A DNA stretch of 64,000 nucleotides from Candidatus Latescibacterota bacterium. Lineage in GTDB: Bacteria; Latescibacterota; UBA2968; UBA8231. The notes beneath the pieces were generated by a model that worked only from the letters and a program-made list of their open reading frames with translations, was not told the origin of the DNA and ran no database searches. Below, in pieces: positions 27,398 to 49,872 of this stretch; within the stretch, counting starts at the first letter, position 1; every line of letters begins with the position of its first letter. The position numbers and the translations under genes are program-made. The stretch covers positions 1 through 64,000 of the forward strand of contig JAGWBY010000002.1 of NCBI GenBank assembly GCA_021295675.1, written 5' to 3'.

Positions 27398-28144
27398 ATG
27401 AGGATACGGAACATCGCAACGAGCGGGCTTTTGTCGGCTCTTTATCTGTTCGTGCTTGTCGGGTGCATCTCACAGGTGGGGCTGCGGCGCTTTGCAACGT
27501 TTCCCGAGCCAGTTCCGCAACAAGACGGGGCCATGACCGTTCTCGATGATGGGACGATTGTCTATGCCAAGGATCGCTTGGAGATCTCGCTACAGGTGTT
27601 GAATGACGGATTCCTCAACCGCCAGTTCGCGGCCGATTCAAGGAAGGGCGCTGAATCGACCAATCCATACACGTATGGCAATTGGAAGCCCTGGGGCCAA
27701 GAATGGACTCCAGAGCGCTTTACCGTGGTCTTGCTGAAGGTCAAAAACTACGAGTATCCCAAGGTTTTCATCGACCCCAAGGCGCTCGTGATCACTACGT
27801 CGAACAACCGAGTGTACCATGCGCTCGACGGCGGGCAGCTCGAAGATCACTTCAGCCCGTATCTGCGGGCTTATGCCGGCAACCAGCGGCAGCAGTTTGA
27901 GGCTACCACCGACCTGCTCAAACGCACCATCTATCCGCCCGACATGGTTTTTTCCGGTCAAGAGTCAGTCGGGTACATCGTCTTTCCGGTTTTGCACCGA
28001 GACGTGAGCAACTTCACCATCAACGTGCCGGACATGGCCGTGCGTTTCGACTACAAGAGCGAACCGGTGGAGACCATCGACTTAGCATTTAAGTTCCAAC
28101 GCGAAGTTTACTACGCTCTTCATCCCCGTGCGGAGACGCCGTAA
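27398..28144 (+). CDS. Predicted outer-membrane or periplasmic lipoprotein, unknown function
   Basis: A 248-residue protein with a lipoprotein signal: hydrophobic residues 10-21 and the lipobox LVGC. Start ATG 27398 is preceded by AGGAAGG at 8 nt. The mature part is predicted mainly beta (VVLLKVKNYEYPKVFIDPKAL; SVGYIVFPVLHRDVSNFTINV). I do not recognise a family. Its stop overlaps the next start by one base (TAATG), so it is coupled to a FlgD-Ig surface protein gene, and a barrel-like protein gene follows. A role in assembly or anchoring of those proteins is possible. Confidence 0.75.
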   Translation: MRIRNIATSGLLSALYLFVLVGCISQVGLRRFATFPEPVPQQDGAMTVLDDGTIVYAKDRLEISLQVLNDGFLNRQFAADSRKGAESTNPYTYGNWKPWGQEWTPERFTVVLLKVKNYEYPKVFIDPKALVITTSNNRVYHALDGGQLEDHFSPYLRAYAGNQRQQFEATTDLLKRTIYPPDMVFSGQESVGYIVFPVLHRDVSNFTINVPDMAVRFDYKSEPVETIDLAFKFQREVYYALHPRAETP

Positions 28145-30111
28145 TGAATCGAGGGCGGGCGGCCCGTATTGCAGTGCTGTTGTGCGCCTCGTGCGCTTGG
28201 GCCCAGTGGCTTGCTGCGGACGAATGGGTGCTTGGGGGCGGCGGTGGCTTGCCGTGGGGCGATCTCGTCCAGGTTCGCGCCCAGATCGACGACCAAAGTA
28301 GCCCCGGCGCGATTCAGATCCGCGGCTTTACGCCCGACGAAAACATTATCACCACGCTCTCTTGGAAATACGGCAAGCCCAACGACTTGGTCAGCGAGGG
28401 CGATGCGGCGCTGTGGGACAATACGGCGGCTAGGAATTCCATTTCGCTGTCGATTGTCGATGGCGACGACACTACAAGCACCGCAGACCTTTTTAAAACC
28501 GCTGGCGTCGATCAAGACGGGCGCACCTTTTTTTTAGATATGGGCTCGCGCGTGCCAGCCGACAGCTTGGTCTTCTTCCCCCGGCAAGAGGGGACGTACG
28601 CCAACGGCAAGCCCTTTAGCGACGACTTTGTTCGCAAGCACCGGATTTCCGTCAGCGATGGGCTGACGTACGTGAACGAGCAGCCGCTCTTCGCCTTACT
28701 GCGCGACGTTCCGGTGAACCCCAATAGCGTGTTCACCATGAAATTTCCCCAGCAGTTCATTCGCTTTATTCAGTTGCGCGTGGGGTCGCGGAGTCCCTTT
28801 GAGATTGCCGAATTTGAACTCTACGGCAACGGCTTCGTGCCACGAGCCACGTACCGGAGCCAAGTTATCGACTTGGGCGAGGTCTCCAACTACGGCACCA
28901 TATCTTGGGCCCAGCGGGCGCTGGAGTTGGTAGAAGGTGAGTTGATTGAGTTGCCGGATCTGGGGCAGACCTCGGTCGCGGTGCGCATGAAGACGGGCCA
29001 AGATGACAGCCCGCTGGTTCACTTCCAAAAGGTTGTTGACAACGAAACGCGCGCTGTGAGCCAAGTAGTGGTCTCGGAAGCGGATTACAACAAGTTGCCT
29101 TCGGGCGAGAAGGGTGATATCGAGGATGACGCTGATAACTGGAGTCCTTGGTCGTTGCCGCTCGAATCCGGGCAATTGATCCCGCTGCCCAGTCCGCGCC
29201 CCTATTTTCAGCTACAGATTATCATGGAGAGCCAATCCGTGACGCAGACGGTGCGCATCGACTCGTTGCGGATTGAGCATTCGCTGCCCCCGGCTGCTGC
29301 AGTCGTCGGCGAGATCTCCTTGGCTGACGAGCCCAACCCACCGGCCGATATCGGCGTAATCGACAAAGACGACGCCGTTGTGCTACCGAGCATCGACGGG
29401 GGCGAAGAGGTGCTCTTCGCCTATGACGTGCGAGCTATAATAAACGACAACCAGAACGGCTTTGATGCTTTGCGCATCGACACGCCGACACCAGCGCGCT
29501 TTGTCGGTCTGCAGATGGGTGATCCGCTCGAGCCCGTGGAGCCAGATCGCGTAAGTGCGGGCGATAGAAACCTCGAAGTGATTTTCACCAGCAACAAGAT
29601 CACCTTTGACAACAATGTGCCGCTGCGCGTGCTCTTTGAAGGATCGACCGTGGTGTTCGGCACGATTTTCACTGGCACGGTCTGGGATACTCAGTCCGAT
29701 ATTCTCGGACAGCCCGTGCTCGAAGGCGATGCCAATTTCGACGTCAGCACCAACTCGCTGCGCGTGGCTTTGACCCAGCAGTCCGTGGGAGAAATCGTCC
29801 GCGCTATAGAGTTTAATCCTTCGGTCTTCACGCCGAATGGAGATGGTATCAACGACCATATCGCCATCAAGTACACTGTAATTCAGATTTCCGAGCCCAA
29901 GCCCATCGAGGTGGCCATTTACGATTTGGCAGGTCGGTTGGTGCGCGTGCTGGCCGACCGCGAGCAGCCCGGCGGGATTTATACTGAGATGTGGGATGGG
30001 CGGAGCGATGCCGACGAGGCCGTGCCTCCGGGTAGTTACGTGGTCTCGCTCTCAGTTGACAGCGGGATCGGCAACTTCAGGCGAGTCGGCGTCGTCGGCG
30101 TGGCCTATTAG
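28144..30111 (+). CDS. Secreted surface protein with GFDxLR module and C-terminal FlgD-like Ig domain (paralogue 1)
   Basis: A 655-residue exported protein with a signal peptide (residues 1 to about 25). Two N-terminal beta domains resemble discoidin/galactose-binding folds. A middle region contains WSPWSLPLESG. A module with GFDALRI is at 439-445, and the C-terminal FlgD-like Ig domain (VFTPNGDGINDHI, about 561-573; then YDLAGRLVRVL and WDGRSDADE) ends exactly in Val-Ala-Tyr. Four other proteins here share this layout. FlgD-like Ig ends are typical of type IX-type secretion cargo in FCB bacteria; no secretion gene is visible in the window. Function unknown, possibly binding glycans. Confidence 0.78.
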   Translation: MNRGRAARIAVLLCASCAWAQWLAADEWVLGGGGGLPWGDLVQVRAQIDDQSSPGAIQIRGFTPDENIITTLSWKYGKPNDLVSEGDAALWDNTAARNSISLSIVDGDDTTSTADLFKTAGVDQDGRTFFLDMGSRVPADSLVFFPRQEGTYANGKPFSDDFVRKHRISVSDGLTYVNEQPLFALLRDVPVNPNSVFTMKFPQQFIRFIQLRVGSRSPFEIAEFELYGNGFVPRATYRSQVIDLGEVSNYGTISWAQRALELVEGELIELPDLGQTSVAVRMKTGQDDSPLVHFQKVVDNETRAVSQVVVSEADYNKLPSGEKGDIEDDADNWSPWSLPLESGQLIPLPSPRPYFQLQIIMESQSVTQTVRIDSLRIEHSLPPAAAVVGEISLADEPNPPADIGVIDKDDAVVLPSIDGGEEVLFAYDVRAIINDNQNGFDALRIDTPTPARFVGLQMGDPLEPVEPDRVSAGDRNLEVIFTSNKITFDNNVPLRVLFEGSTVVFGTIFTGTVWDTQSDILGQPVLEGDANFDVSTNSLRVALTQQSVGEIVRAIEFNPSVFTPNGDGINDHIAIKYTVIQISEPKPIEVAIYDLAGRLVRVLADREQPGGIYTEMWDGRSDADEAVPPGSYVVSLSVDSGIGNFRRVGVVGVAY

Positions 30112-30166
30112 TTGATAGTTGGATCTGGTGCTTGACCGGCAAAAATTCAAAAGGGAGGATTCCAGC

Positions 30167-32797
30167 GTGAGGTGCATGCTCTACGCAGCAGTTGTCACAG
30201 CCGGCGTCGCGCTCCTGTGCGATGCCGCTTTTGCCCAACGGGTCGGTTTTCTGACCGGACGCGAACCGCGCGGTGTGGATGTCTATGAGATGGCGATGAC
30301 GCCGGCACAGCGAAAGTGGCAATATCCGCAAAGCCTATACCACTTCTATCGTTGGACCGGCGAGGAATACAGCAATTACGCCCGCCAAAACTACGAGCGC
30401 TACGTATCTACCGAGCTTGAAGGCTTTCGCACCTACGACCTCTACGGGAACTACATCACTCGTGGTTTCGAGGTGTACAATTGGTCTATGGACAGTCCGG
30501 TGACTTCGGGCAGTACAGTGCGCAAAGGCCCCAAGTACAGTAGGTGGTTTCAAAGCCTAATCGTCTCGTCGATGTCCAAGGGGCAGTTTTATTCCTCAAT
30601 GACCATTGGCGAAGCCCTGCGCACGACCCTGACGCCGCTGACCTTTTCCAAGCCGGCCTTCAACGGGGTGCAGTGGGACTTTGCCGCTGACAAGTACCAG
30701 ATGACCCTCTTGGCGTCGCGCTTGGCCTCCCCGGGTTCAGCCATACAGTTTGAAAACTCACTCGGCCAGATATTGGGCGACATGACCAATCTCTTCGGCA
30801 TGCACTCCAAAGTGCAGCTCGGGGATTTTTCCAAGTTGGGCTTTACCTATCTGAACATTGCCAACTTCTCCACGGGTCGCAAGCTGGGCGATAACTCGCT
30901 TAAAGGTGTGTTGACCGAGGCCCAAAACGGCGGCAACGTCGAGACGATCGTCCTGCGGCTCTCAGACGATTCGCCCGAAGACGGCGTAGGCGGTGCTCAG
31001 CTTTTTGCCGAGCGCATTATCATCAACGGGGTTGATCATCCCGAAATCGTCCCCTCACCGCGCGGTGGTGTGCGGCGCGCCGGCGTCATCGAAGCCAATG
31101 GTGCTGAGACGTTGGAGTTGACCTACAACATCGCCCGCGACTTCCGCCAACAGCCCGACGACGAAATCACCACGTTTCAGGAGATCAGCGAAATCGAGTT
31201 TGAGTTGGTCATCGCCAACGACTACCGGATCGAATCCACCTCTAATCTCCAAGTCAACGCTCAGGGCGAGCCGGTGTTCTTAGAGGTCGAGCGCGCCCAC
31301 GGCAACGTCAGCGATGGCTCAAACCAGCGCTTCATCCGCTTTGAATACGGCCTGCCCACCGGCAAGGATATCATCGGCTTCAACTTTGATATAGACGATA
31401 TCAAGGGCTTCAATATGCGCTCGGAGCTTGCTTTCAGCCGGGCGTTTCGCCGCTTTCCCAACCAGAACTTCCAAGATCACACCCTCGCCCAAGACGAAGG
31501 CATGGCCTACTACATCACGGCTTCGCAGGACGCTTATCCGTTTTTCGCGTACGGAGAATTCTACCGTCTGGAGCCTGAGTACCGGACCAATGCGTTTATC
31601 TCGGATGCGCGGGGTTTCATCGACTACGAACACCCGGAGCGCTATTCCTTTGAGGCGGTTGACGACAACGACGACCAAGACCGCTTTGCCGACTGGAAGC
31701 GCCTGTGGCAAAACGGCGACAACGCCTTTGGCGAATCGCCTTTTGGTACAGGTGGCCAAGCCGACCCACAGGTTTTCCCTGGGTACGACGAGAACTCGGA
31801 CTTCATCTCGGACTTTAACCAAAACGACAATAGCCAGCCGGATTTCGCCGAGCCATTCCTGCGCTACAACGTCGATCCACCTGAGTTCCTCTTTGGCGTT
31901 GACATGAACAACAACAACGTCATTGATCGCTTTGAGAACGATACGTTCGCCGACTATCCCTACCGCCACGACCGCGATGGCTACAACGTGTACGGGGGCG
32001 TTCACTTGACCGAAGCCATCAAGGCGACGGTGGGCTACTCCACGGCCGACGAGATCAGTTCCAAGCGCAGCGCGCAAATGAGCTATGCGGTAGTCACGGG
32101 CGAGTGGAAATGGCCGGGCATTGAGGCTCGGGCTTTCCAATACGCTCGCTCGGTCCAAGACGACATCGAAGACGATGTGATCCAATGGGTAGATCCAGAT
32201 GGATTTCGCGAAACCATTGACCCACTGATCGCCCAAGACACCTTCGTTTGGACTGGCTATCTGACGTTCGATTACCTGCGCCTTAAAAACCTGAATATCT
32301 ACAACAAGGTGAAGTACGACTGGTTTAGTCAGCGCGACGAGCAGGCCGAGGTCAAAGACAATCGCCTCTTTTTTGGCGCGATCAACAAGGTTGATTATCC
32401 GCTGCCGATTACCGACAACCTGTCTTTCTGGCCGCGCTACAAGAGCGTGTACCGCAAGATCAACCCAACTTTTAGCACCGACCTCGATATCACCGAGTGG
32501 TCGCAGTTTTACATGCTGACCTCGAAGTACTTCATCCTGCCTGGAACCTTTATCGAATACGGCGTCGAGCTCAATCTCTTCCGCAACCTCGAAGAGCGCC
32601 CGGAGATCTTGCCGCCTGGATACGTCGATGACTTCACTGGTTCGGTGTTGGCCTTACAGCTTTCCAACAGATCGGCGTATCTGGGTTATTCGCTGACCAT
32701 GAATACGGGATTTCGCTGGGAGCGCCGGGCCTTTGCCGAGGCGACCGAAACCAACTCTTTGCTATTCATTCGGGTTTTCGCAGGCCTCCAGGACTAG
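30167..32797 (+). CDS. Predicted outer-membrane beta-barrel protein with Asp/Asn-rich loop
   Basis: An 876-residue exported protein, start GTG 30167 eight nt after GGGAGG, with signal peptide (LYAAVVTAGVALLCDAAFA, cleavage before QRVGF). Many alternating amphipathic beta strands occur, most clearly in the last 300 residues (FIEYGVELNLFRNL; SAYLGYSLTMNTGFRWERR; SLLFIRVFAGLQD), so it is probably an outer-membrane barrel. Residues about 540-600 are very rich in Asp/Asn (YDENSDFISDFNQNDNS; FGVDMNNNNVIDRFEND), resembling calcium-binding loops. No family recognised. Follows paralogue 1 by 55 nt; could be its export or anchoring partner. Confidence 0.7.
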   Translation: MRCMLYAAVVTAGVALLCDAAFAQRVGFLTGREPRGVDVYEMAMTPAQRKWQYPQSLYHFYRWTGEEYSNYARQNYERYVSTELEGFRTYDLYGNYITRGFEVYNWSMDSPVTSGSTVRKGPKYSRWFQSLIVSSMSKGQFYSSMTIGEALRTTLTPLTFSKPAFNGVQWDFAADKYQMTLLASRLASPGSAIQFENSLGQILGDMTNLFGMHSKVQLGDFSKLGFTYLNIANFSTGRKLGDNSLKGVLTEAQNGGNVETIVLRLSDDSPEDGVGGAQLFAERIIINGVDHPEIVPSPRGGVRRAGVIEANGAETLELTYNIARDFRQQPDDEITTFQEISEIEFELVIANDYRIESTSNLQVNAQGEPVFLEVERAHGNVSDGSNQRFIRFEYGLPTGKDIIGFNFDIDDIKGFNMRSELAFSRAFRRFPNQNFQDHTLAQDEGMAYYITASQDAYPFFAYGEFYRLEPEYRTNAFISDARGFIDYEHPERYSFEAVDDNDDQDRFADWKRLWQNGDNAFGESPFGTGGQADPQVFPGYDENSDFISDFNQNDNSQPDFAEPFLRYNVDPPEFLFGVDMNNNNVIDRFENDTFADYPYRHDRDGYNVYGGVHLTEAIKATVGYSTADEISSKRSAQMSYAVVTGEWKWPGIEARAFQYARSVQDDIEDDVIQWVDPDGFRETIDPLIAQDTFVWTGYLTFDYLRLKNLNIYNKVKYDWFSQRDEQAEVKDNRLFFGAINKVDYPLPITDNLSFWPRYKSVYRKINPTFSTDLDITEWSQFYMLTSKYFILPGTFIEYGVELNLFRNLEERPEILPPGYVDDFTGSVLALQLSNRSAYLGYSLTMNTGFRWERRAFAEATETNSLLFIRVFAGLQD

Positions 32798-32823
32798 GGG
32801 CTGCACTATTTCTCTGTGGATCC

Positions 32824-32863
32824 AAAGCGCCCGGCGTTCTCTAGTGGAGATGCCGGGCGCTTT
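32824..32863. terminator. Perfect 12-bp inverted repeat after the barrel gene
   Basis: AAAGCGCCCGGC (32824-32835) / GCCGGGCGCTTT (32852-32863), loop 16 nt with a small inner TCTC/GAGA stem. It starts 27 nt after the barrel-gene stop and ends 13 nt before the TPR lipoprotein ATG. The T-run is short (TTTA). The A/T-flanked arms suit a bidirectional terminator, but its closeness to the next start also allows a control hairpin. Confidence 0.65.
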
Positions 32864-32875
32864 ACTGCCTAATAA

Positions 32876-34120: not shown

Positions 34121-35812
34121 ATGTGGTTTGTACTAGCCGTTATTTGGGCGTTGGTGGGGTGTGGAAGCGAGGAGACGCGGCCTAGTTTTGTCGATGTGGC
34201 TGCTGAAGCAGGGGTCCAATTGCGCACCGTATCTGGGACGCCGCAAAAAGAGCACATCGTCGAATGCAATACGGGCGGGACGGCCCTTTTAGACTACGAC
34301 CTAGATGGCGATGTGGATATTTTTATCGTCAACGGCTCGCGTATCGCTGGATACGCCTTGGGCCGCGAACCCCGCGCTGAGCTGTACCGCAACGACGACG
34401 CTTGGCGCTTTACCGGCGTTGGCCGAGAGGCTGGCGTCGCGCACGTGGGCTGGGGTATGGGGGCCACGGCGGCTGACTACAACGCCGATGGATGGCCCGA
34501 TTTGTACTTGGCGAACTACGGTCCCAATGCCCTGTACGAAAACGAGGGCGACGGCACGTTCGTCGATGTGGCGGCCGAGCGGGGCGTGGACTTTAGCGGC
34601 TGGAGCTCGTCTGCGGCCTTTGGCGACTACGACCTCGACGGCGACTTGGATTTTTACTTGGCTAATTACATCGACTTTGACCCGGCGTTTCGCCCGATTG
34701 ATCCGAGCTATTGCACTTGGCGCGGGATAGACGTATTCTGCGGCCCGCGCGGGATGCCGGGTGAGCGGGATCAATTCTATCGCAACGATGGGCCTAGCGC
34801 AGGTTGGACCTTTGCCGAGGCGAGTGCGGCGGTTGGCATTGCCGACTACGAGTACTATGGTTTTGCTGCGCTGGCTGGCGACTGGGACGAGGACGGCGAC
34901 TTGGACATTTACATTGCCAACGATTCGACGCCGAATGTGCTCTACCGCAACGACCGAGGTGCGTTTGCGGACGTGTCGCTTCTGTCGGCGACTGCGTACA
35001 GCGAGGATGGTCGGGAACAGGGCGGCATGGGCTTGGCGGCTGGCGATTATGATCGCGATGGCGATTTCGACCTCTTCGTTACCAATTTCTCGCACGACAA
35101 CAACTCGCTCTACGACAACAATGGCCGGGGGTTTTTCACCGACGCTAGTTTCAGTTCGACCCTAGGCCGTTCGAGCATTAGCTCTTTAGGGTGGGGCACG
35201 GGTTTTTTCGATTGCGACAACGACGGCGACGCCGACCTGTTCGTCGCCAACGGCCACGTGTATCCTGCCGTTGACCACCGCGACTTGGGGACTCGCTACG
35301 CCCAGCGCAACCATCTGTTTGAAAATCGCGATGGCGCATTTGTCGAGGTTGGTGCAACCTCGGGTCCGGGCCTAGCGGTGGAAAAGTCGAGCCGCGGTTC
35401 GGCCTTTGGCGATTTGGACAATGACGGGGACTTGGACATTGTGGTAGTCAATATCGACGACACGCCGACTTTGCTGCGCAACGACGGGGGCAATCGCCAC
35501 AACTATCTGATGGTAAGGCTGCTCGGCGATGGCGGGAATACAGACGCCATTGGTGCGCGAGTCTCGGTGTCGGTGGGTGGTGCGGTGCAGATGCGGGAGG
35601 TGCGCGCGGGCACGAGCTACCTGTCGCAGGACGACCTGCGGCTGCATTTCGGCTTGGGAGCGGCGACCGAGGCCGATCACCTCGTGGTGCGCTGGCCCGA
35701 TGGAGTGGAAGAGCGCATTGACGGAGTGGCGGGCAACCGGCTGATCACCATCCAGCGCGGCGCGGGCCTCGTCGCCGAGGGGTTTGGTCCAGTACCGAGG
35801 CCGGGGCCGTGA
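34121..35812 (+). CDS. FG-GAP/ASPIC-UnbV repeat lipoprotein (CRTAC1-like), copy 1
   Basis: A 563-residue exported protein with lipobox ALVGC at the N-terminus. It contains many Asp-rich FG-GAP/VCBS repeats (DYDLDGDVDIFIVNGSR; DEDGDLDIYIANDS; DNDGDLDIVVVN), which usually fold as a calcium-binding beta-propeller, and a C-terminal ASPIC/UnbV domain (IGARVSVSVGG, about residues 465-550, with HFGLGAATEADHLVVRWPDG). The biochemical role of the family is unsettled; surface adhesion or glycan binding is often suggested. It abuts the TPR lipoprotein gene and overlaps the next gene as GTGA. Confidence 0.88.
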   Translation: MWFVLAVIWALVGCGSEETRPSFVDVAAEAGVQLRTVSGTPQKEHIVECNTGGTALLDYDLDGDVDIFIVNGSRIAGYALGREPRAELYRNDDAWRFTGVGREAGVAHVGWGMGATAADYNADGWPDLYLANYGPNALYENEGDGTFVDVAAERGVDFSGWSSSAAFGDYDLDGDLDFYLANYIDFDPAFRPIDPSYCTWRGIDVFCGPRGMPGERDQFYRNDGPSAGWTFAEASAAVGIADYEYYGFAALAGDWDEDGDLDIYIANDSTPNVLYRNDRGAFADVSLLSATAYSEDGREQGGMGLAAGDYDRDGDFDLFVTNFSHDNNSLYDNNGRGFFTDASFSSTLGRSSISSLGWGTGFFDCDNDGDADLFVANGHVYPAVDHRDLGTRYAQRNHLFENRDGAFVEVGATSGPGLAVEKSSRGSAFGDLDNDGDLDIVVVNIDDTPTLLRNDGGNRHNYLMVRLLGDGGNTDAIGARVSVSVGGAVQMREVRAGTSYLSQDDLRLHFGLGAATEADHLVVRWPDGVEERIDGVAGNRLITIQRGAGLVAEGFGPVPRPGP

Positions 35813-40563: not shown

Positions 40564-40594
40564 AAAGAAAACAGCGCCGCTTCCGTAAATTTTT

Positions 40595-40616
40595 TATACT
40601 ATATCTATCTAGTATA
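40595..40616 (+). promoter_or_regulatory. AT-rich promoter-like region with inverted repeat
   Basis: TATACTA (40595-40601) / TAGTATA (40610-40616) with an 8-nt spacer in a 70-bp AT-rich gap before paralogue 2. TATACT resembles a -10 box, but no good -35 box lies upstream. It may be promoter plus operator; the evidence is composition and symmetry only. Confidence 0.35.
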
Positions 40617-40633
40617 TATCCGGGAGTAAAACC

Positions 40634-42685
40634 ATGAAACGTCTAGCGAATTTTTGGCTTTGGTTCCTCGCCGCAGCATCAGCTACGGCCGCGGCGGCGG
40701 ACATTTCCTTGTGGCAGATCGGCGGCAGCGGCCTTCGCTGGGCCGATAGCGACTCAGCCCAAGTAATGATTGACTTTACCGGATCGAACAACTCGATTCA
40801 GCCAGTGCTGGTGAGTTCGGATACGACGGTCTTTCCTCTGCTCGAAAATTGGTCGCCGAAAAAGGCTCCAGACGAGCTAGGTTTTGTCGATGGCGAGCGG
40901 CCCCGCGCTTGGAAGGGCTGCTGCGGCACCTCTTCGACGGTTGACAACGCGCTCAACCTCATCGACGGCAGCGGCGCGACGTACAATCCGGTGACGAGCA
41001 ACAGCATTAACAGCGAGTACTACACCATTGATTTAGGGGTGCCGGTGCCGTTGTTCCGCTTTGCTATGAGTACGCCGGACAAGGGATTTTTCCGCTCGGA
41101 CGGGACCCCGCTAGAGGAAGACGCCATCCCGGCCTTTGAGGTGTCGATAGCTCCAGACACCAACAACGACGTGCTGCACACGCCCTACGGACCCCCCATC
41201 GGGGAAATCATCGCCGAGGCGCGCGAGAACGTCAACCCCAAGATCGTGGCTGATTTTCCCTTGCAATACGTGCGCTACGTGCGCTACAAGCGCAAGAATT
41301 CAATCCTCGACGAAGCGACCAATCAGTCGTTGGGGCATTCGGGCACGGCGCGCAAGGGGACGGTGGCCGAGTTCTTCCTCTGGGGAGAGGGAATCCCCAA
41401 ACGGGCTACGTACAAGACGGTCATTTTTGACCTCGGCACAGTCGTCAACTTCGGTCGGCTGTTTTGGAAAGCCACGCCCATGCGCCTAGTCGACGGCGTG
41501 GCCGAGGAAGCTCCCGACGCCAACGTGCAGATCGAGGTCGAAGCGCGCACTGGGATTGACTCAAATCCGGATATCTACTACGAGTTTACGGATATGGGGA
41601 CGCGCGTCGTCGTCGAGCAACAACGCTATCAGGGCAAGCTGAAAAACCAGAGCGCGGCCGTTACGAATGCCGATGGGCTGGGCGGTACTCTGACCCTTTC
41701 CACGCGGCCCAAGCCGGGGCTCCGCGCCGGCATTGAGTACGACCAACAAAACTGGACGTTCTGGTCCTTTCCAACGACCGAGTCCGACCGGCCTCTCAAC
41801 CTCAACCGAGGGTCGTATTTGCAGGTCAAGGTGGTGCTGCACAGCGAGCGATTCGACGAGTTCGTGCGCCTCGATTCCCTGTGGATTGAGACCTCGCCGA
41901 TATTGGCTAGCCGCGTCGTGGCTGAGATAGCCCAACTCGGCCAGCCCAACCCGGCGCGTGGCGTGGCCGAGGTACCGTTGGGCCAGAGAACGGATTTCAC
42001 CTATGACATCAAGGCGGAATTTGCAACTGGTGAGGTGGGTTTTGACGCCCTGCGGATTAGCACCGGCAGCTCACAGACCGAGTTCAAGGATCTGGAATTG
42101 GATGGGGTCGCAACCGACCCGGCCGGGATAGAGGTTGTGGACGACGGCTTTGTCGTGCAGCTACCGCAGCGCATAAGTGGTGCCTACAACCCGAGTTTGC
42201 GGGTGACCTTTGCCGCCGAGGTCTTCGACTTTGCGCGCACCTTTGAAGGCGAGGTTTTCAACACCGGTGGCACCGAGTTGCCGCAGCCTGTCGAAAGTGG
42301 GGACGTCAGCGATGCGATCGGTACCAATAGTCTGCGGGTTTTGGCTGCAAGCGCGGCCAATCCGCAGTTAGTGCAAGATGTGCAGTTTTCCAGCGGCGTA
42401 ATCACCCCCAACGGCGACGGGGTCAACGACGAGTTGGTCATTTCCTACTCGCTCTTCGCGCTGCCGCAATCGGTGCCGGTGCAGTTACAGGTGTTCTCGC
42501 TGGACGGTCGTCAGGTGGCGCAAGTCCAGCGCGGCCAACAAGGGTCCGGGCCTCAGCGCTTGTCTTGGGATGGCCGCGACCAACGCGGTGAGACGCTCGC
42601 CCCGGGCCTGTACCTTTTGGGTGTCGGCATCGAAGCCGAAGACAAGAGCGCCCTACAACTGCGCCCCATCAACATCGCTTACTGA
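40634..42685 (+). CDS. Secreted discoidin-like / GFDxLR / FlgD-Ig surface protein (paralogue 2)
   Basis: A 683-residue exported protein with signal peptide (FWLWFLAAASATAAAA, cleavage before DISLW). A discoidin-like domain lies around residues 100-260 (LIDGSGATYNP, YYTIDLGVPVPLFRFAM). A middle beta region contains WTFWSFP. The GFDALRI module is near 469-475, and the FlgD-like Ig is at about 585-683 (ITPNGDGVNDELV, WDGRDQRGETLAPGLYLL), ending in Ile-Ala-Tyr. GGGAG precedes the ATG. Layout matches paralogue 1 most closely. A Cys pair at CCGTSS is unusual for this cysteine-poor family. Secreted, probably surface-displayed; ligand unknown. Confidence 0.78.
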   Translation: MKRLANFWLWFLAAASATAAAADISLWQIGGSGLRWADSDSAQVMIDFTGSNNSIQPVLVSSDTTVFPLLENWSPKKAPDELGFVDGERPRAWKGCCGTSSTVDNALNLIDGSGATYNPVTSNSINSEYYTIDLGVPVPLFRFAMSTPDKGFFRSDGTPLEEDAIPAFEVSIAPDTNNDVLHTPYGPPIGEIIAEARENVNPKIVADFPLQYVRYVRYKRKNSILDEATNQSLGHSGTARKGTVAEFFLWGEGIPKRATYKTVIFDLGTVVNFGRLFWKATPMRLVDGVAEEAPDANVQIEVEARTGIDSNPDIYYEFTDMGTRVVVEQQRYQGKLKNQSAAVTNADGLGGTLTLSTRPKPGLRAGIEYDQQNWTFWSFPTTESDRPLNLNRGSYLQVKVVLHSERFDEFVRLDSLWIETSPILASRVVAEIAQLGQPNPARGVAEVPLGQRTDFTYDIKAEFATGEVGFDALRISTGSSQTEFKDLELDGVATDPAGIEVVDDGFVVQLPQRISGAYNPSLRVTFAAEVFDFARTFEGEVFNTGGTELPQPVESGDVSDAIGTNSLRVLAASAANPQLVQDVQFSSGVITPNGDGVNDELVISYSLFALPQSVPVQLQVFSLDGRQVAQVQRGQQGSGPQRLSWDGRDQRGETLAPGLYLLGVGIEAEDKSALQLRPINIAY

Positions 42686-42696
42686 GGAAAGCACTC

Positions 42697-45120
42697 ATGT
42701 CCAATCGAGCCATCGCCTTAGTGATGATACTCGCCTGCTACGCGCACGCCGAGTTTCTCACCTTTGACAGCCAAGAGGCTTGGGAGGCCAACTGGTCGCT
42801 CAAGCCCCAGTTAAACATCTTCACGCCGGAGGGGCATTTGGGGCTGATCAAGTTCCGCAAGGACATCAACGCCGCGCTCGATGCCCATCTCTTCGTCCAC
42901 CCGACCAATGAGCGCGGGGATGTGGCCGGTGGTATCTGGTCCGCACTGAGCAACCCAAACGACGCCCCCCAGATCATCGACGGGGATGCTGCCACCTTTT
43001 GGCAGCCAGCCGACAGCGACCCGTTAGACAAGTGGATCGTGCAAATCGACTTGGGCCGCGCGGTACTGGCCAAAGAGATCCGCATCCACTTCCCCGATGA
43101 AGAGGGAGCCAAACCCTTCCGTCAGTTCAGCGTTTTCGCCTCTACAGGTGCCCACGTGGCAGCCTTAGAGGATGTATATCGCTTCGCGCCGATCTATCGC
43201 ACGACTAAACCCAACCTGGATACGTATGTCAGCTTTGGCTTCAAGCCGGCCGTGGAGGATACCACTCGTGCAGTGGAGCAACTGAGCGATGTCAGCGGTC
43301 TCGACGATTTTACCGTGGACTTATTCAGATTCAAGGCCAACGCCGCTGCCACAGGGGATTCGCGGGTGGCCGCTAACTCGAGGTGGCAGATGATACAGTT
43401 CATCCGCTTCCTCGTCGATGAGCACCAACTCGATGGCGCGCTCGCGGAAATCGAGGTCATTACCGCCGGCGACAACATCAGCCTTGGGGTCGAGGCAAAG
43501 GGCGGCACGTACATCAATGGCTCACGGGCGACCGACCCCTTCTTCTGGCTCGACGGCAACCTCAATACGTACGGGGTCATCGAGGTGCATCAGCAGTTTA
43601 CCGAGTCGCGCGGCACGGCCTTGGAAGGGGGCTTGTGGTGGCAGGTAGATCTGGGGGCGACCTACTGGGTGGACGACGCGTTCGTCTATTGGCAAAAGGC
43701 TGGTGAGCGTCTGGCCGACTTCCGCTTGGGTACCAATAACGCCGGCACGGGGTACACCTTTTTCTCTTCCGACGGCACCAAGACCTTATCCGGCGACATC
43801 GATTTTGACACGTGGATTTTTGAACCGGAGTGGACCAATGCCCGCGAGGAATACAAGCGGCACTACCGGTATTTGTTCAATCCGCGCAAGGTGCGGCACA
43901 TCTTCTGGCTGGCCTTGCACGACTTGGGCTGGCGCGCCCATCCCATGGAGCTACAAATGTTCTCCCCAGGCCACCCGGCCGAAGTCGTGATCCAATCGAG
44001 CTTTTTGGACCTGAGCGCGCTCGCGGGCGATGGGCAGCCCAAGGTGATCAAGGCACTCCATTACGACGCTGATCTGCCGCCTAATACTCAGATCGAATTG
44101 CGTTCCCGTTCGGGTAACGAGATGGGCGAGGTGTACACTTTTCACAACAAGATCGGCGAGGTAGTAACTGAGGAGAAGTGGAACAGCTCGCCCAAGGTAC
44201 TGCGGGGCCGAGTGGATACCTCGGTCGTCGTCGGGGAGGCTTGGAGCGAGTGGAGCAACGTGTACAAGCTGTCGGGCGAGCCTTTTAAGTCGGACTCGCC
44301 GCGCAAATTCGTGCAGTTAGAGTTGGTTATGAGCACGGAAGACCCAGCGGTGGCTCCCACGGTGCGCTCGGTCGAGTTGGAATTCGTTGATGCGCTAGTC
44401 AACGAGGCGCACGGGTCGATTTTGCCGCGCCAAGCTAAGCCCAACGAGGATACCCGTTTCACCTATATGCTGTGGCCGTCCGTGACCGCGGATAACAAGG
44501 GTTTCGACCGCCTGCGATTGGTTGTGCCCGACTTGGTACGGGCCGATGAAGTCGAGGTGACAGTCGCTGGTCAGGTGGTTGCGCCGACGGCTATGAACAT
44601 TGCCGCGGATTCGCTGTTGATCGACTTGCCGCAGGTAGTTCAAGGCGACTCCGTGCAGGTCGCCTTCACCACTCGGCTGGTGCGGAACGCCGCAGTCGTG
44701 GATGCCGATCTAGGCCTGAGCGACGCGCCCGGCCTGTGGCAGGACGTCGAGCCGGCCGAGCGCCGGTCCAACGTAGTGCTATTGCCCGAACTGGCCGATA
44801 GCGACCGCTTGATTGGCGACTTGCAGCTTTCGAGCCGAGTGCTCACGCCCAATGGCGATGGAGTCAACGATGCCGTGGAGTTGAGCTTTGTCGTCTTCAA
44901 GGCCCAAGATGCGGTGCCCATGGTCGAGGTGCGCGACTTGGTCGGCCGGCCCGTGGCCCAATTGACGCCGGTCTCAGAGGGGCCGACCCGCCGCTTTACG
45001 TGGAATGGTCAAGATGCGGGCGGTGCCACCGTGCCTCCGGGCATCTATCTATGGCGCATAGACGTAAACGCAGATTCAGGCGATGCCATTGAGCTGCGCG
45101 TCGTCGAGGTGGCCTACTAA
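42697..45120 (+). CDS. Secreted discoidin-like / GFDxLR / FlgD-Ig surface protein (paralogue 3)
   Basis: An 807-residue exported protein with a short signal peptide (ALVMILACYAHA, cleavage before EFLTF). A coagulation-factor 5/8 (discoidin)-like domain spans about residues 65-160 (IIDGDAATFWQPAD, WIVQIDLGRAVLAKEIRIHF). A second such domain begins near 255 (GDNISLGVEAKGGTYINGS, then WWQVDLGATYWVDDAFVYW). The conserved WSEWSNVYKLSGEPFKSDSP motif follows, then GFDRLRL at 602-608 and the FlgD-like Ig (LTPNGDGVND near 716-725), ending in Val-Ala-Tyr. Twelve nt after paralogue 2. Shares the N-terminal HLFVHPT...GGIW stretch with paralogues 4 and 5. Confidence 0.8.
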   Translation: MSNRAIALVMILACYAHAEFLTFDSQEAWEANWSLKPQLNIFTPEGHLGLIKFRKDINAALDAHLFVHPTNERGDVAGGIWSALSNPNDAPQIIDGDAATFWQPADSDPLDKWIVQIDLGRAVLAKEIRIHFPDEEGAKPFRQFSVFASTGAHVAALEDVYRFAPIYRTTKPNLDTYVSFGFKPAVEDTTRAVEQLSDVSGLDDFTVDLFRFKANAAATGDSRVAANSRWQMIQFIRFLVDEHQLDGALAEIEVITAGDNISLGVEAKGGTYINGSRATDPFFWLDGNLNTYGVIEVHQQFTESRGTALEGGLWWQVDLGATYWVDDAFVYWQKAGERLADFRLGTNNAGTGYTFFSSDGTKTLSGDIDFDTWIFEPEWTNAREEYKRHYRYLFNPRKVRHIFWLALHDLGWRAHPMELQMFSPGHPAEVVIQSSFLDLSALAGDGQPKVIKALHYDADLPPNTQIELRSRSGNEMGEVYTFHNKIGEVVTEEKWNSSPKVLRGRVDTSVVVGEAWSEWSNVYKLSGEPFKSDSPRKFVQLELVMSTEDPAVAPTVRSVELEFVDALVNEAHGSILPRQAKPNEDTRFTYMLWPSVTADNKGFDRLRLVVPDLVRADEVEVTVAGQVVAPTAMNIAADSLLIDLPQVVQGDSVQVAFTTRLVRNAAVVDADLGLSDAPGLWQDVEPAERRSNVVLLPELADSDRLIGDLQLSSRVLTPNGDGVNDAVELSFVVFKAQDAVPMVEVRDLVGRPVAQLTPVSEGPTRRFTWNGQDAGGATVPPGIYLWRIDVNADSGDAIELRVVEVAY

Positions 45121-45137
45121 CCGGTTAGAGCGGTAGA

Positions 45138-47486
45138 ATGCGGCGAAAACACGGGATTTGCTGTGCTCTCACGGCCCTGTTCATCTGCGGTGCGAACCAT
45201 GCCGAGGAAATCCGCTTCGACACTCCGGCCGAGTGGGCGACTTGGGAAGTTCCGGTCGATATCGTCCAGTTTGCCGACGACGGCTCGCTGGAACTGAGGA
45301 AATTTCGCAAGCAGATCAACGCCACTCTCGATGCCCATCTCTTTACCCAACCCACCCAGACTCGTGGCAAGGTCCAGGGGGGGATCTGGCAGGTCGGCTC
45401 CAATTCGACCGCGGCCCGGCGCATCATGGACGGCAATCTGGAGACGGTGTGGCGGCCTAGTCAATCCGACGATCTGGTCGATTGGGTGGTGACCATCGAC
45501 TTGGGGCGGCCGGTGCTAGCCGAGCGCATTCGCTTGGTGTTTCCTGATCGCGCAGGGGCACGTCCTTGGCGGCAATTCAGCGTTTTCACGGCCAATGGTG
45601 CGCGCATCCAATCCACGGATGATGTCTTCAGGTTCGACCAAGCCTTTCAGACAACCCAGCCCAACCAAGAGCAGGTCGTCGATATTGATCTAGTCGGCGA
45701 GCGCGATGTAACGCGAGTCATCGACGAAAACCTCGGGCTGGACCCAACCGCGCTAAATACCTTCCGCATGGTGCGCTTTGTGCGCGTGCGCGCCGACGAA
45801 AAAAGCGCGGATGCAGCTTTGGCCGAAGTGGAGGTGATCTCCGCAGGCGACAACATAAGCCTCGGAGTCTTGGCGCGCGGAGGCAGCTTCGACAACGGAC
45901 TTTTGGCGCGCGAGCCACAGAATATGTTCGACGGCATCACCGACACGTACGGCAATATATTCACTGTTAAGACTAAGGGTGGCTGGCGCGAGAGTGGGGT
46001 GTGGTGGTCGGTTGATTTAGGGGCGCTGTTCTGGCTCGACGAGGCATTCATCTACTGGCAGGATCGAGGCGAAGGCCTGTCGAGCTTCCTGTTCGAGGGA
46101 TTGCAGGCTGGTTCTGGATACCAAATCCTCTTTTCCGATGGGCGGCGAACCATTGCCGGCGACATCGACTACACGCCGCTGATCTTTGAGCCAAGGCCAG
46201 TCGGCGCGGAGTGGAACTTGCGCCACCATCGCTACGCGTTTGCGCCGCGCAAAATTCGCTACTTATTCTGGCATTCGCTGACCGATACAGGCTGGTTTTC
46301 TCACCCCATGGAGTTGATGCTGTTCTCGCCGGGCTACCCCGCGCAAGTGGTGTTGCTCTCGGACTTTATCAACCTCGGCCAATTCGCTGGCGATGGCCGC
46401 GCCAAGGCCATCAAGCGCTTGCGCTGGGAGGCGACCATGCCCGATCAGACGAGGTTGCAGGTGCGATCGCGCTCGGGCAATACCCTGCAAGAGTTCTACA
46501 CGTTCTACGATAAAAAAGGCGAGGAAGTCACCGAGACGCGCTACGGGAGCCTGCCCAAAGTCATCCGCGGCCCCATTGACACTATGGTCGTCGTCGGGGA
46601 AGATTGGGGCGCATGGAGCAACTTCTACCAGTTTTCCGGCGAGGCGTTTAAGTCGGAGACGCCGCGCCGCTTTATTCAATTGGAACTGATTCTTTCCACC
46701 GAGGATCCGGTCGTCGCACCGGTGCTGCACGCACTGGCGCTGGATTTTGAGGATGCGCTGGTTTCGCAGGCGGCTGGACAGATTGCACCGCGCCACGCCG
46801 TCCCTAACGAGGTGACGCAGTTTACGTATGTGCTGCGGACGAACGCTACCGAGGGCGACTCGGGCTTTGACCGGCTGCGCTTTTCCACGCCGAGTGCGGT
46901 GGATGCAGCGGACGTGCGGTTGCGAATCGGCGGTGCGGAACGCGAGGCGAGTGGGGTACACGTGGAAGGGGATTCGCTATTGTTTGTAGATTTGCCAGAG
47001 ACGGTGCGGACGGATTCTGTCGCCGTGGAGTTTACCACTAAGGTATTGCACAATGCCACGGTCTTTGCTGCGGACTTAGGGCAAGAAGCGCGTCCCGGTC
47101 TGTGGCAGTCGGTGGAGGCGGCTGAGCGGCAAGCGAACTTGGTATTTTTGCCGGATCTACCCGGCAGTGCGCGGCTGATCGGCGATTTGCAGGTTGCGCC
47201 GTCGGTGTTTTCGCCCAACGGCGACGGTATAAATGATCACGTGCAGATTCGCTTTGCGCTATTCAAGGCGGTGGATGCGTCTCCGAGCGTGCGCATCTTT
47301 GACTTGGCGGGCCGAGAAGTGGCCGCTCTTGTGTCGTCGGGTGGAGATGTGTTGCAGTCGTTTAGTTGGGGAGGGTTGGATGCGTTGGGTGAGCGGGTTG
47401 CACCCGGTGTGTATGTGTGCCGCATTGACGCGGGAGCCGATGCAGGGCAGGGGGAAATAGTGCGCACCATAGCCGTAGCCTATTGA
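45138..47486 (+). CDS. Secreted discoidin-like / GFDxLR / FlgD-Ig surface protein (paralogue 4)
   Basis: A 782-residue exported protein (signal LTALFICGANHA, cleavage before EEIRF). It has the same order as paralogue 3: N-terminal INATLDAHLF segment, discoidin-like domain (RIMDGNLETVWRPSQSD, WVVTIDLGRPVLAERIRLVF), a second discoidin-like domain (GVWWSVDLGALFWLDEAFIYW), the WSNFYQFSGEAFKSETPRRF motif, GFDRLRF at 576-582, and FlgD-like Ig (FSPNGDGINDHVQIRF near 691), ending Ile-Ala-Val-Ala-Tyr. At DNA level it is strikingly similar to paralogue 5 over long stretches, pointing to a recent tandem duplication. Confidence 0.8.
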   Translation: MRRKHGICCALTALFICGANHAEEIRFDTPAEWATWEVPVDIVQFADDGSLELRKFRKQINATLDAHLFTQPTQTRGKVQGGIWQVGSNSTAARRIMDGNLETVWRPSQSDDLVDWVVTIDLGRPVLAERIRLVFPDRAGARPWRQFSVFTANGARIQSTDDVFRFDQAFQTTQPNQEQVVDIDLVGERDVTRVIDENLGLDPTALNTFRMVRFVRVRADEKSADAALAEVEVISAGDNISLGVLARGGSFDNGLLAREPQNMFDGITDTYGNIFTVKTKGGWRESGVWWSVDLGALFWLDEAFIYWQDRGEGLSSFLFEGLQAGSGYQILFSDGRRTIAGDIDYTPLIFEPRPVGAEWNLRHHRYAFAPRKIRYLFWHSLTDTGWFSHPMELMLFSPGYPAQVVLLSDFINLGQFAGDGRAKAIKRLRWEATMPDQTRLQVRSRSGNTLQEFYTFYDKKGEEVTETRYGSLPKVIRGPIDTMVVVGEDWGAWSNFYQFSGEAFKSETPRRFIQLELILSTEDPVVAPVLHALALDFEDALVSQAAGQIAPRHAVPNEVTQFTYVLRTNATEGDSGFDRLRFSTPSAVDAADVRLRIGGAEREASGVHVEGDSLLFVDLPETVRTDSVAVEFTTKVLHNATVFAADLGQEARPGLWQSVEAAERQANLVFLPDLPGSARLIGDLQVAPSVFSPNGDGINDHVQIRFALFKAVDASPSVRIFDLAGREVAALVSSGGDVLQSFSWGGLDALGERVAPGVYVCRIDAGADAGQGEIVRTIAVAY

Positions 47487-47502
47487 GACAGACTGAAGCG
47501 AT

Positions 47503-49872
47503 ATGATGCAGATAAAACGCGGGGTTTTCTATTTGCTCTTAGTCCTGTTTACCTACGGTTCGAGCCATGCCGAGGAAGTCCGCTTCGACACCCCGGCCGA
47601 GTGGGCGACTTGGGAATTTCCGGTCGATATCGTCCAGTTTGCCGACGACGGTTCGCTGAAGCTGAAGAAATTCCGCAAGCAGATCAACGCCACCCTCGAT
47701 GCCCACCTCTTCACCCATCCTTCCCAGCAGCGCGGCGAGGTCCAAGGGGGAATATGGCGTGCCGGTAGCAATGAGGCGGACGCGCCCAAGCTCATAGATG
47801 GCGATCCAGCGACCTATTGGCAGCCCGAGAGAGCGGATCAACTCGTCGATTGGTCGGTCGATATCGATTTGGGAAGGCCGGTGCTGGCGCGGGAGATCAA
47901 GCTGACGTTTCCCGATGAGGAAGGTGCCCGGCCCTTGCGGCAGTTTAGCGTCTTTATCACTCAGGGTGCCCGGATTCAGGCCCAAGACGACGTGTTCCGC
48001 TATCGCAAGATCTTCCAGACGACCAAGCCCAACACCGAAACTAGTATTGCGATTCCGCTGCTGGGCAGTGCGCTGGATACCACGCGGGTGCTCGACGCGG
48101 ACAGAGACGTTGATTTGAATGCCGAGCAGGATTTCCAGATGGTGCGGCTGATCCGCGTCGTCGCCGATGAAAAGAGCCGTAATGCAGCTCTGGCCGAAAT
48201 AGAGGTCCTTTCCCAAGGGGACAACGTCAGTTTGGGGACTTTGGAGCGAGGTGGGCACTTTGAACACGGCTTGCTGGCGCGCGAGCCACAGAACATGTTC
48301 GACGGCAACATGGACACCTTCGGCAATATCCTCACCTCGGGGGGGAGTAAGGGCGGCTGGCGCGAGGGAGGGCTGTGGTGGCAGGTGGATTTGGGTGCAT
48401 TGTTCTGGATCGACGAGATGTTTATATATTTTAAGACCCGGGGTGAGGGCACGTCGAGTTTTTTGTTTGAAAGGCTACATCACGGGCGCGGTTACAACAT
48501 CTTGTTCTCGGATGGACGGCTCACTACCGGCGGGGATTTGGACCTGACCTTTCTGTTGCGCGAGGACATGGCCATTGACGCGGCGTTGGCATCCGCGCGG
48601 CAGGTCCGCCACATTCGCTATCTTTTTCAACCGCGCAAGATGCGCTACATCTTCTGGCACGGCCACGAGGATAGCGGCTGGTTTTCACATCCGATGGAGT
48701 TCGTGATCTTTTCTCCAGGCTATCCCGCGCAGGTGGTATTGCGTTCGGACTTTATCGACCTCGGCCAACTCGCCGGCGATGGCCGTGCCAAGGCGATCAA
48801 GCGCTTGCGCTGGGAGGCGACAATGCCGGAGCAGACGCAGTTGCAGGTGCGCTCGCGGTCGGGCAACGTCCTGCAAGAGCTATACACGTTCTACGACAAA
48901 AAGGGCGAGGAGGTCACCGAGACGCGCTACAATAGCCTGCCCAAAGTCATCCGCGGCCCCATCGACACCATGGTCGTCGTGGGAGCCGATTGGGGCGCGT
49001 GGAGCAACTTCTATCAGTTTTCCGGCGAGGCGTTTAAGTCGGAGACGCCGCGCCGTTTTATCCAATTAGAACTGATTCTCTCCACTGAGGATCCTGCCGT
49101 CGCGCCGGTGCTCCACGCGCTGGCGCTGGATTATGAGGACGCGCTGGTCGCCCAAGCGGCTGGGCGAGTTATGCCGCGTCATGCCGTGCCCAACGAGACA
49201 ACGCAGTTCACATACACGTTGTGGACGAACGCGGACGAAAGCGACTCGGGCTTTGACCGGCTGCGCTTTTCCACGCCGAGTGCGGTGGATGCAGCGGATG
49301 TGCGGTTGTGGATCGGTGGTGCGGAACGCGAGCCGAGTGGGGTGCGGGTGGTAGGTGATTCGCTGCTGTTCGTCGATTTGCCGGAGACGGTGCGGACGGA
49401 TTCGATAGCCGTGGAATTTACCACTAAGGTATTGCACAATGCCACAGTCTTTGCTGCGGACTTAGGGCAAGAAGCGCGTCCCGGCCTGTGGCAATCGGTC
49501 GAAGCGGCTGAGCGGCAAGCCAACTTGGTGTTTCTGCCGGATTTGCCCGGCAGTGAGCGTCTGATTGGCGATTTGCAGATCGTGCCGTCGGCTTTTTCGC
49601 CCAATGGCGATGGGATCAACGATCAGGTGCAGATCCGCTTTGCGCTGTTTAAGGCGGTAGATGCCACTCCGAGTGTGCGCATTTTCGACTTGGCAGGTCG
49701 AGAAGTGGCGGCTCTTACTTCGTCGGGTTCGGGTGTGTTGCAGTCGTTTAGCTGGGCCGGGCTAGATGGGTCGGGTAATCGAGTTGCGCCCGGCATGTAC
49801 GTGTGTCGCATCGACGCGGGTGCCGATGCTGGGCAGGGCCAAGTATTGCGTACCCTAGCCGTAGCCTATTGA
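47503..49872 (+). CDS. Secreted discoidin-like / GFDxLR / FlgD-Ig surface protein (paralogue 5)
   Basis: A 789-residue exported protein, tandem duplicate of the preceding gene. N-terminus (EEVRFDTPAEWATWEFPVDI) and C-terminal third are nearly identical to paralogue 4, while the region around residues 150-380 differs more, as expected for a variable ligand face. The discoidin-like domain (LIDGDPATYWQPE) and second domain (GLWWQVDLGALFWIDEMFIYF) are clear, GFDRLRF is at 583-589 and FSPNGDGIND near 699-708. It ends Leu-Ala-Val-Ala-Tyr. Two adjacent ATGs (47503, 47506) begin the frame. The membrane-TPR gene follows after 8 nt. Confidence 0.8.
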   Translation: MMQIKRGVFYLLLVLFTYGSSHAEEVRFDTPAEWATWEFPVDIVQFADDGSLKLKKFRKQINATLDAHLFTHPSQQRGEVQGGIWRAGSNEADAPKLIDGDPATYWQPERADQLVDWSVDIDLGRPVLAREIKLTFPDEEGARPLRQFSVFITQGARIQAQDDVFRYRKIFQTTKPNTETSIAIPLLGSALDTTRVLDADRDVDLNAEQDFQMVRLIRVVADEKSRNAALAEIEVLSQGDNVSLGTLERGGHFEHGLLAREPQNMFDGNMDTFGNILTSGGSKGGWREGGLWWQVDLGALFWIDEMFIYFKTRGEGTSSFLFERLHHGRGYNILFSDGRLTTGGDLDLTFLLREDMAIDAALASARQVRHIRYLFQPRKMRYIFWHGHEDSGWFSHPMEFVIFSPGYPAQVVLRSDFIDLGQLAGDGRAKAIKRLRWEATMPEQTQLQVRSRSGNVLQELYTFYDKKGEEVTETRYNSLPKVIRGPIDTMVVVGADWGAWSNFYQFSGEAFKSETPRRFIQLELILSTEDPAVAPVLHALALDYEDALVAQAAGRVMPRHAVPNETTQFTYTLWTNADESDSGFDRLRFSTPSAVDAADVRLWIGGAEREPSGVRVVGDSLLFVDLPETVRTDSIAVEFTTKVLHNATVFAADLGQEARPGLWQSVEAAERQANLVFLPDLPGSERLIGDLQIVPSAFSPNGDGINDQVQIRFALFKAVDATPSVRIFDLAGREVAALTSSGSGVLQSFSWAGLDGSGNRVAPGMYVCRIDAGADAGQGQVLRTLAVAY

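Follow-up and report, generated by a model that had tools for sequence, protein, structure and literature searches.

The 64,000-nucleotide stretch analysed here (referred to as the window; contig JAGWBY010000002.1 of a Candidatus Latescibacterota bacterium) carries five related genes whose predicted products each combine a GFDxLR motif, an immunoglobulin (Ig)-like C-terminal domain of the FlgD type and the same two last residues, Ala-Tyr, and the question raised by the locus is which export route, if any, would read such an end. The analyses favored, with a probability of about two in three, the reading that the five proteins are cargo of the type IX secretion system (T9SS), equipped with a variant of the type-B-like sorting signal and with a barrel partner of their own. 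Homologous proteins closing on Tyr are referred to as the tyrosine class; the labels class I (other FlgD-type tails) and class II are our own naming.

The five open reading frames (ORFs) lie on the forward strand at the starts given in the preliminary description of this DNA, whose claim that the products end in (Val/Ile)-Ala-Tyr was borne out: protein 1 at 28144..30111 (655 amino acids, aa; GVAY), protein 2 at 40634..42685 (683 aa; NIAY), protein 3 at 42697..45120 (807 aa, two F5/8C-type matches; EVAY), protein 4 at 45138..47486 (782 aa, F5/8C-type domain; AVAY) and protein 5 at 47503..49872 (789 aa, F5/8C-type domain; AVAY). In protein 1, an F5/8C or CBM32-like domain is predicted at residues 63-231 and the C-terminal domain at residues 549-655, with the GFD at residue 439 (GFDALR motif at 29458..29475, forward strand); the codons read at 30106..30111 of the same strand are the terminal Tyr and the stop. 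The five proteins align without variation in GFD-x-LR, PNGDG-x-ND and the terminal Ala-Tyr. The GFD precedes PNGDG, in the order that had been described, at a distance of 116-125 residues and not 100-120 as stated, and PNGDG lies 90-92 residues before the C-terminus. CHU_C (PF13585) was above its Pfam cut-off of 27 bits in four of the five proteins (the fifth scored 24.4), FlgD_ig was above cut-off in two, and F5/8 type C matches were found in three.

The nearest named relatives belong to Latescibacterota/Latescibacteria, Handelsmanbacteria and metagenome-assembled genomes (MAGs) labelled Gemmatimonadetes, with one labelled Dehalococcoidia, and near-identical loci (98% for protein 1) are present in the MAGs SB0670_bin_29 and p16x65bins.25. 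Among the matches listed, 196 of 204 database relatives end in Tyr, far more than chance would give, and two in His, while six have odd ends that appear truncated or frame-shifted. In a set of 238 distinct tyrosine-class tails, which includes 99 tails from genome G001, the last residue was Tyr in 232, Phe in four, Trp in one and His in one, so that the C-termini of homologues across genomes keep Tyr and do not vary freely; position -2 was Ala in 139, Val in 84, Ile in nine, Ser in five and Thr in one. Tyr, and not Ala-Tyr, is the fixed end, and the neighbouring residues vary: of the invariant Ala-Tyr claimed from the window, the Tyr held and the Ala did not. The Tyr column was the seventh most conserved (97.5%) at a mean pairwise identity of 36%, and Tyr ends all 25 representatives that remain at an identity cut of 40%; in alignment A3 one row is one codon short, hence without the final Tyr.

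The same pattern was found in the complete genome G001 (record OY282352.1, 5.97 Mb), where at least 105 class tails extend to the end of the model with scores of 65 bits or above, a lower bound obtained by scoring 150 of 265 candidates; the remaining hits scored below 60 bits and stopped short of the model end. Tyr closes 102 of these tails, Phe two and His one, and 103 stop exactly at the end of the aligned stretch. No aromatic end occurred among 46 class I tails of this genome, which are a sample and not an exhaustive set. A large class I subgroup of G001 (e.g., L195-L198) ends in KTTKLP, with 24 of the 46 sampled tails ending in Pro, and some of the KTTKLP-ended tails lie near divergent barrels at 3.63 and 5.27 Mb.

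Across the phylum, the aromatic end was absent from all 75 class I tails, which end in Pro (28), Arg (19), Lys (16), Glu (nine), Gln (two) or Asp (one); 13 of the 75 make up alignment A6. The 41 Bacteroidota tails end in Arg (21), Glu (seven), Asp (three), Lys (three), His (two), Pro (two), Leu, Asn and Gly (one each); these loci were collected with a pattern containing PNGDG, so that their sharing of PNGDG is by construction, and the 13 of 41 in the type B alignment (A5) were hand-picked for tidy ends. These counts bear on the explanation by shared descent alone, according to which the last strand of a large paralogous family is determined by the fold and the terminal Tyr plays no sorting role. 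All members are homologous and, as far as seen, belong to one phylum, and conserved positions elsewhere (W, G, P, D) are structural ones. We nevertheless regard this explanation as improbable: Tyr stays at the last position at about 36% mean identity and in all representatives at the 40% cut, the homologous class I tails of the same genomes vary, and the six class genes found in a deep clade (genomes G014-G017) all end in Tyr without extensions (VVVAY, VVVAY, VVVGY, VAVAY, VAMAY, VAVAY). Simple recent paralogy, which had been offered as the alternative, is insufficient by itself because Tyr is kept among such diverged representatives, unlike in the co-resident FlgD-type class. The retention of Tyr while its neighbours vary agrees with the earlier proposal that the fixed end forms part of a sorting signal, in which the Tyr would be the residue recognized.

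An aromatic residue at position -1 with hydrophobic residues at -3 and -5 is the pattern of substrates of the beta-barrel assembly machinery (BAM), and nearly all 238 tails show it. A reading of the end as an outer-membrane-protein beta-signal for BAM is nonetheless extremely unlikely, with position -7 being mostly Arg or Gly, and it was rejected because in the predicted model the aromatic end is part of a soluble Ig-like domain, alignable with the PorU tail, and not of a transmembrane barrel.

A profile of about 165 residues around the GFDxLR motif, built in a first round from relatives of protein 1 only, matched 222 of the 238 class tails and no ORF of class I (75) or of Bacteroidota (41). 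Once refined, for which class members were used, it matched 199 of 199 tyrosine-class ORFs of at least 300 aa and again none of the 75 class I ORFs, and it ended 7-10 residues before the start of the domain profile in 125 of the 199. As a literal string the motif is not found throughout the class: a loose GF[DS] pattern was present in 63 of 120 tails. The profile precedes the domain in each of the 199 ORFs, which upholds the suggestion that the module belongs to the signal. The combined length of module and domain, about 215-235 residues, is consistent with the requirement of type B signals, for which more than 200 residues are reported as necessary (PMC10202324).

The predicted model of the tail has a seven-stranded Ig-like fold as in the tails of PorU, PorZ or RgpB, with the PorU C-terminal domain as its best structural match. 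By profile, the tail scored closest to Bacteroidota type B signals. Of 31 diverse tails, 31 matched PF13585 (CHU_C), 30 PF13860 (FlgD Ig-like), 24 the tail end of NF033707 (PorU) and 21 TIGR04131, all at E<=1e-3. The curated type B model TIGR04131 (cut-off 35 bits) gave 24.5 bits, no match, 15.4, 17.0 and 18.8 bits for window proteins 1 to 5, and 29.4 bits for the tail of protein 1 alone; the type A model TIGR04183 (cut-off 23 bits) gave 17.6, 13.8, no match, 13.0 and 15.5 bits, and 21.6 bits for that tail, so that all five proteins stayed below both cut-offs.

The T9SS core was sought in the genomes of relatives, 64 of the phylum, to which all genome-level counts refer and among which the window's own genome is not included. 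SprA was above cut-off in 61, PorU in 37 and the PorV family in 64 of them. The tyrosine class was taken as present in 39 genomes (best E <= 2.1e-17, a threshold set afterwards; the next genomes had 2.0e-14 or weaker), and in these SprA, PorU and PorV were above cut-off in 37, 35 and 39, respectively. PorU was above cut-off in two of the 25 genomes that lack the class and not in the other 23, indicating that PorU alone does not bring the class; tails were read in three of the 25 (G024, G026 and G047), and none of them ends in Tyr. In 22 genomes (G026-G047), SprA and PorV were above cut-off with a weak PorU, in many cases through ORFs of about 1900 aa. PorP/SprF (PF11751) gave weak matches in 16 of the 64 genomes, only two of which carry the class, and these matches were not counted as PorP because several overlap PorV-family matches. 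The co-occurrence of the class with secretion genes, which had been put forward as a check, was therefore found for SprA and PorU, and, as these genomes contain SprA, PorU and PorV, the proposal of an undescribed export route was given up; the tail moreover has the fold of a T9SS C-terminal domain.

The gene that recurs beside the class encodes a large outer-membrane barrel. In the window it lies directly 3' of protein 1 on the forward strand (30119..32797; the ORF runs from a TTG at 30119, with a likely ATG start at 30176). Its family of about 890-aa proteins comprises at least 1018 homologues at E<=1e-10, with no Pfam domain among the 120 matches listed, and at that threshold it is present in 39 of the 64 genomes, the same 39 that carry the tyrosine class. 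Among 69 non-redundant barrels of loci L001-L048, 46 immediately follow a class gene, 13 follow another barrel and 10 lie elsewhere; these counts are biased because the loci were chosen by class match, and G001, being complete, provides the fairer one. This genome has 34 strong and seven divergent barrel copies. Of the strong barrels, 20 lie less than 500 bp downstream of a class gene on the same strand, compared to a mean of 0.14 and a maximum of three under random placement (which ignores gene bodies), and six follow another barrel. Likewise, 58 of the 105 class genes are within 5 kb of a barrel versus nine expected (maximum 24), and none of the 46 sampled class I genes is within 10 kb of a strong barrel. 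Of the linked genes proposed as partners of the signal, the barrel is therefore the one confirmed as a recurrent neighbour, and the lipoprotein-like gene upstream of protein 1 is the weaker candidate, with homologues in 10 loci, mapped beside tyrosine-class genes or barrels.

The AlphaFold model of the window barrel has a mean pLDDT of 78 and, by our own count, 27 strands of at least eight residues, with a poorly predicted acidic stretch in the middle. In this low-confidence middle, at residues of about 480-600, a conserved acidic/Asn run was observed (DDNDDQDR ... DENNDFISDFNQND ... DMNNN ... DRFENDEEPDYPY), which may bind calcium or act as a plug. Neither the barrel ORF nor the lipoprotein-like gene had a Pfam or NCBIfam match at E<=0.1, the barrel had no match to PDB sequences at E<=0.1, and barrel patterns had none in viral contigs. 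No T9SS barrel was among the fold matches listed, an absence from a list that proves nothing. The barrel does not resemble a PorP/SprF shuttle, with no match to PF11751 or TIGR03519 and 27 strands against about 14, and no PorP/SprF gene lies directly downstream in the window or in G001, where the different large barrel is found instead.

These data also bear on the explanation that the class uses the T9SS with PorV or another PorV-family shuttle and that the large barrels act otherwise, for example in transport of the material bound by the lectin-like cargo, as SusC does with SusD. The PorV family is above cut-off in all 64 genomes and has 12 matches in G001, where about 105 cargo genes face 34 strong barrels and many have no barrel of their own; the barrel, with its 27 strands, is large next to the PorV and PorP barrels, described as 14-stranded (PMC9143113). 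In the deep clade, furthermore, where the barrels are divergent and the class is sparse, each of the six class genes detected is followed 17-88 bp downstream by a PorV-like gene of 317-338 aa, behind which lie one or two large barrels. The best NCBIfam match of these PorV-like proteins is the PorV/PorQ family NF033709 (64.7-86.3 bits, cut-off 90), with weak TIGR03519 matches in five of six, and their position between cargo and barrels may represent an older arrangement. Against such a shuttle, all 12 PorV-family genes of G001 are more than 4.5 kb away from any class gene (the nearest at 4.6 kb and the other eleven at more than 15 kb), while barrels stand directly behind class genes 20 times. 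We consider a PorV-type shuttle rather unlikely, and a new barrel partner for the Tyr-ended signal probable, judging from the gene pairing. Other divergent deep-clade barrels occur in different contexts (L282-L290), several of them with two genes behind them, of about 280-300 and 355 aa, and some end in LGW.

Several observations weigh against the reading of the five proteins as T9SS cargo with a type-B-like signal and their own barrel. The TIGR04131 scores fall short of the curated 35 bits, with the best window tail reaching 29.4; among the 39 class genomes, PorU is above cut-off in 35 and SprA in 37, and PorP/SprF is essentially absent, with a weak match in two. In G001, 47 of the 105 class genes are more than 5 kb from any barrel, and no PorV-family gene adjoins class genes there (nearest 4.6 kb) or in the window; nine of the 15 deep-clade barrel contigs retrieved have no class gene beside the barrel. 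The co-occurrence in 39 of 64 genomes tracks clades and thus corresponds to few independent events.

Under the favored reading, the five cargo proteins, which by their N-termini (signal peptides were judged by eye) would reach the periplasm through Sec, would be directed to the T9SS by their last 215-235 or so residues, that is, by the GFDxLR module and the CHU_C/FlgD-type Ig domain acting together as a type-B-like sorting signal; such a function is suggested because of the fold, the profile similarity, the obligate pairing of module and domain and the presence of the machinery. The last strand ends in a free C-terminal Tyr, which would stand where Bacteroidota type B signals have their motif-E end. 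In Flavobacterium johnsoniae, a cognate PorP/SprF barrel, whose gene lies downstream of the cargo gene, is reported to accompany type B cargo out of SprA, and five motifs within the final 100 residues are reported to be required, each of them (PMC12618676); in Porphyromonas gingivalis, PG1035 is reported to bind PorP (PMC9143113). Type A tails, as described for the SprA pore, bind PorV loops, mostly by fold-shaped hydrophobic contact (PMC10994853). For the tyrosine class, it would be the adjacently encoded large barrel, in place of PorP/SprF, that receives the signal after the SprA translocon and then shuttles the cargo or anchors it on the surface, where the N-terminal F5/8C (CBM32-like) domains suggest binding of glycans or of host or particle material. 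A bolder extension, to which we give somewhat less than even odds, is that these proteins represent a third, phylum-specific branch of the T9SS, in which Tyr-closed pairs of module and domain are read by barrels of about 27 strands that replace PorP/SprF as shuttle or anchor and place more than 100 lectin-like proteins on the surface of one cell.

Other genes of the window complete the picture of the locus. The lipoprotein-like gene (27398..28144, forward strand), read from sequence as having Leu-Val-Gly-Cys near its N-terminus, shares one base of its stop with the start of the gene for protein 1. A PpiC/SurA-type peptidyl-prolyl isomerase (PF00639; 38815..40563, forward strand) precedes protein 2; it recurs near such loci, with homologues beside barrels, and PpiC-type isomerases, TPR proteins, ASPIC/FG-GAP proteins and the lipoprotein are all recurrent around tyrosine-class or barrel genes. 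In the window, genes of the FG-GAP/ASPIC-UnbV type are found among or beside the tyrosine-class genes at 34121-35812 and 35809-37446 (forward strand) and at 51767-53941 (reverse strand), and they recur near tyrosine-class loci elsewhere. On the reverse strand, two genes at 53972..56878 and 56897..58885 have translated tails that resemble class I loci and end in QLTLLK and QLLLLK, respectively; with two such type-A-like tails in the same window, both tail classes are used by the host organism. Scans of the window for Rfam families and tRNAs gave no hits.

T9SS sorting domains are described as restricted to Bacteroidota in one review (PMC10202324), and the system is placed in the wider Fibrobacteres-Bacteroidetes-Chlorobi group in another source (PMC11205867); our literature search found no paper joining a Latescibacter- name with T9SS or type IX secretion. 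The present data show that one genome outside Bacteroidota contains two signal classes, one of them with at least 105 members, and the one-residue rule (Tyr-COOH), together with the paired barrel, makes it testable how a shuttle recognizes a sorting domain of the type B kind and what function its conserved last strand has. If the favored reading is true, it would suggest a way in which Latescibacterota, both sponge-associated and free-living, construct their surface.

Compared to known systems, the large barrel has its best Foldseek matches in MtrB and SlpA/SDBC, with which it shares the size class, although TM-scores of 0.24-0.29 of the query and 8% identity do not establish a relation. The FlgD Ig-like domain (PF13860) is similar in sequence to the tyrosine-class tails, but none of the five proteins has the N-terminal hook-assembly part of FlgD in Pfam and NCBIfam scans. 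The PorU C-terminal domain, the closest in structure, differs in that Latescibacterota PorU tails end in Arg (6 of 6 loci read) and that tyrosine-class proteins have no protease domain. Type A C-terminal domains (TIGR04183; PorV, PorU) share the Ig-type fold and are resembled by class I tails (YPNPFNP ... TRKMxLLK), whereas the tyrosine class has neither the (Y)PNPFN start nor a Lys near the end and scores under the TIGR04183 cut-off. Type B C-terminal domains (TIGR04131/PF13585; F. johnsoniae, P. gingivalis) share with the tyrosine class the CHU_C match, the PNGDG(I/V)ND start and the conserved last strand, a signal of more than 200 residues, an outer-membrane barrel gene that follows the cargo gene and a T9SS core in the genome. 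The differences are that tyrosine-class tails end in Tyr while an Arg column closes the domain in the 13 hand-picked Bacteroidota tails, that the tyrosine class stays under the TIGR04131 cut-off and reaches more than 100 copies in one genome, and that the barrel following it, of about 890 aa, is by profile unrelated to PorP/SprF. Because the class stays under the TIGR04131 cut-off and does not fit the PorP/SprF pattern, it was not filed as ordinary type B; the tyrosine-class signal most likely works as a member of the type B kind, and the layout of the system is that of type B with PorP/SprF, apart from the barrel, which is another one, and the end, which is Tyr.

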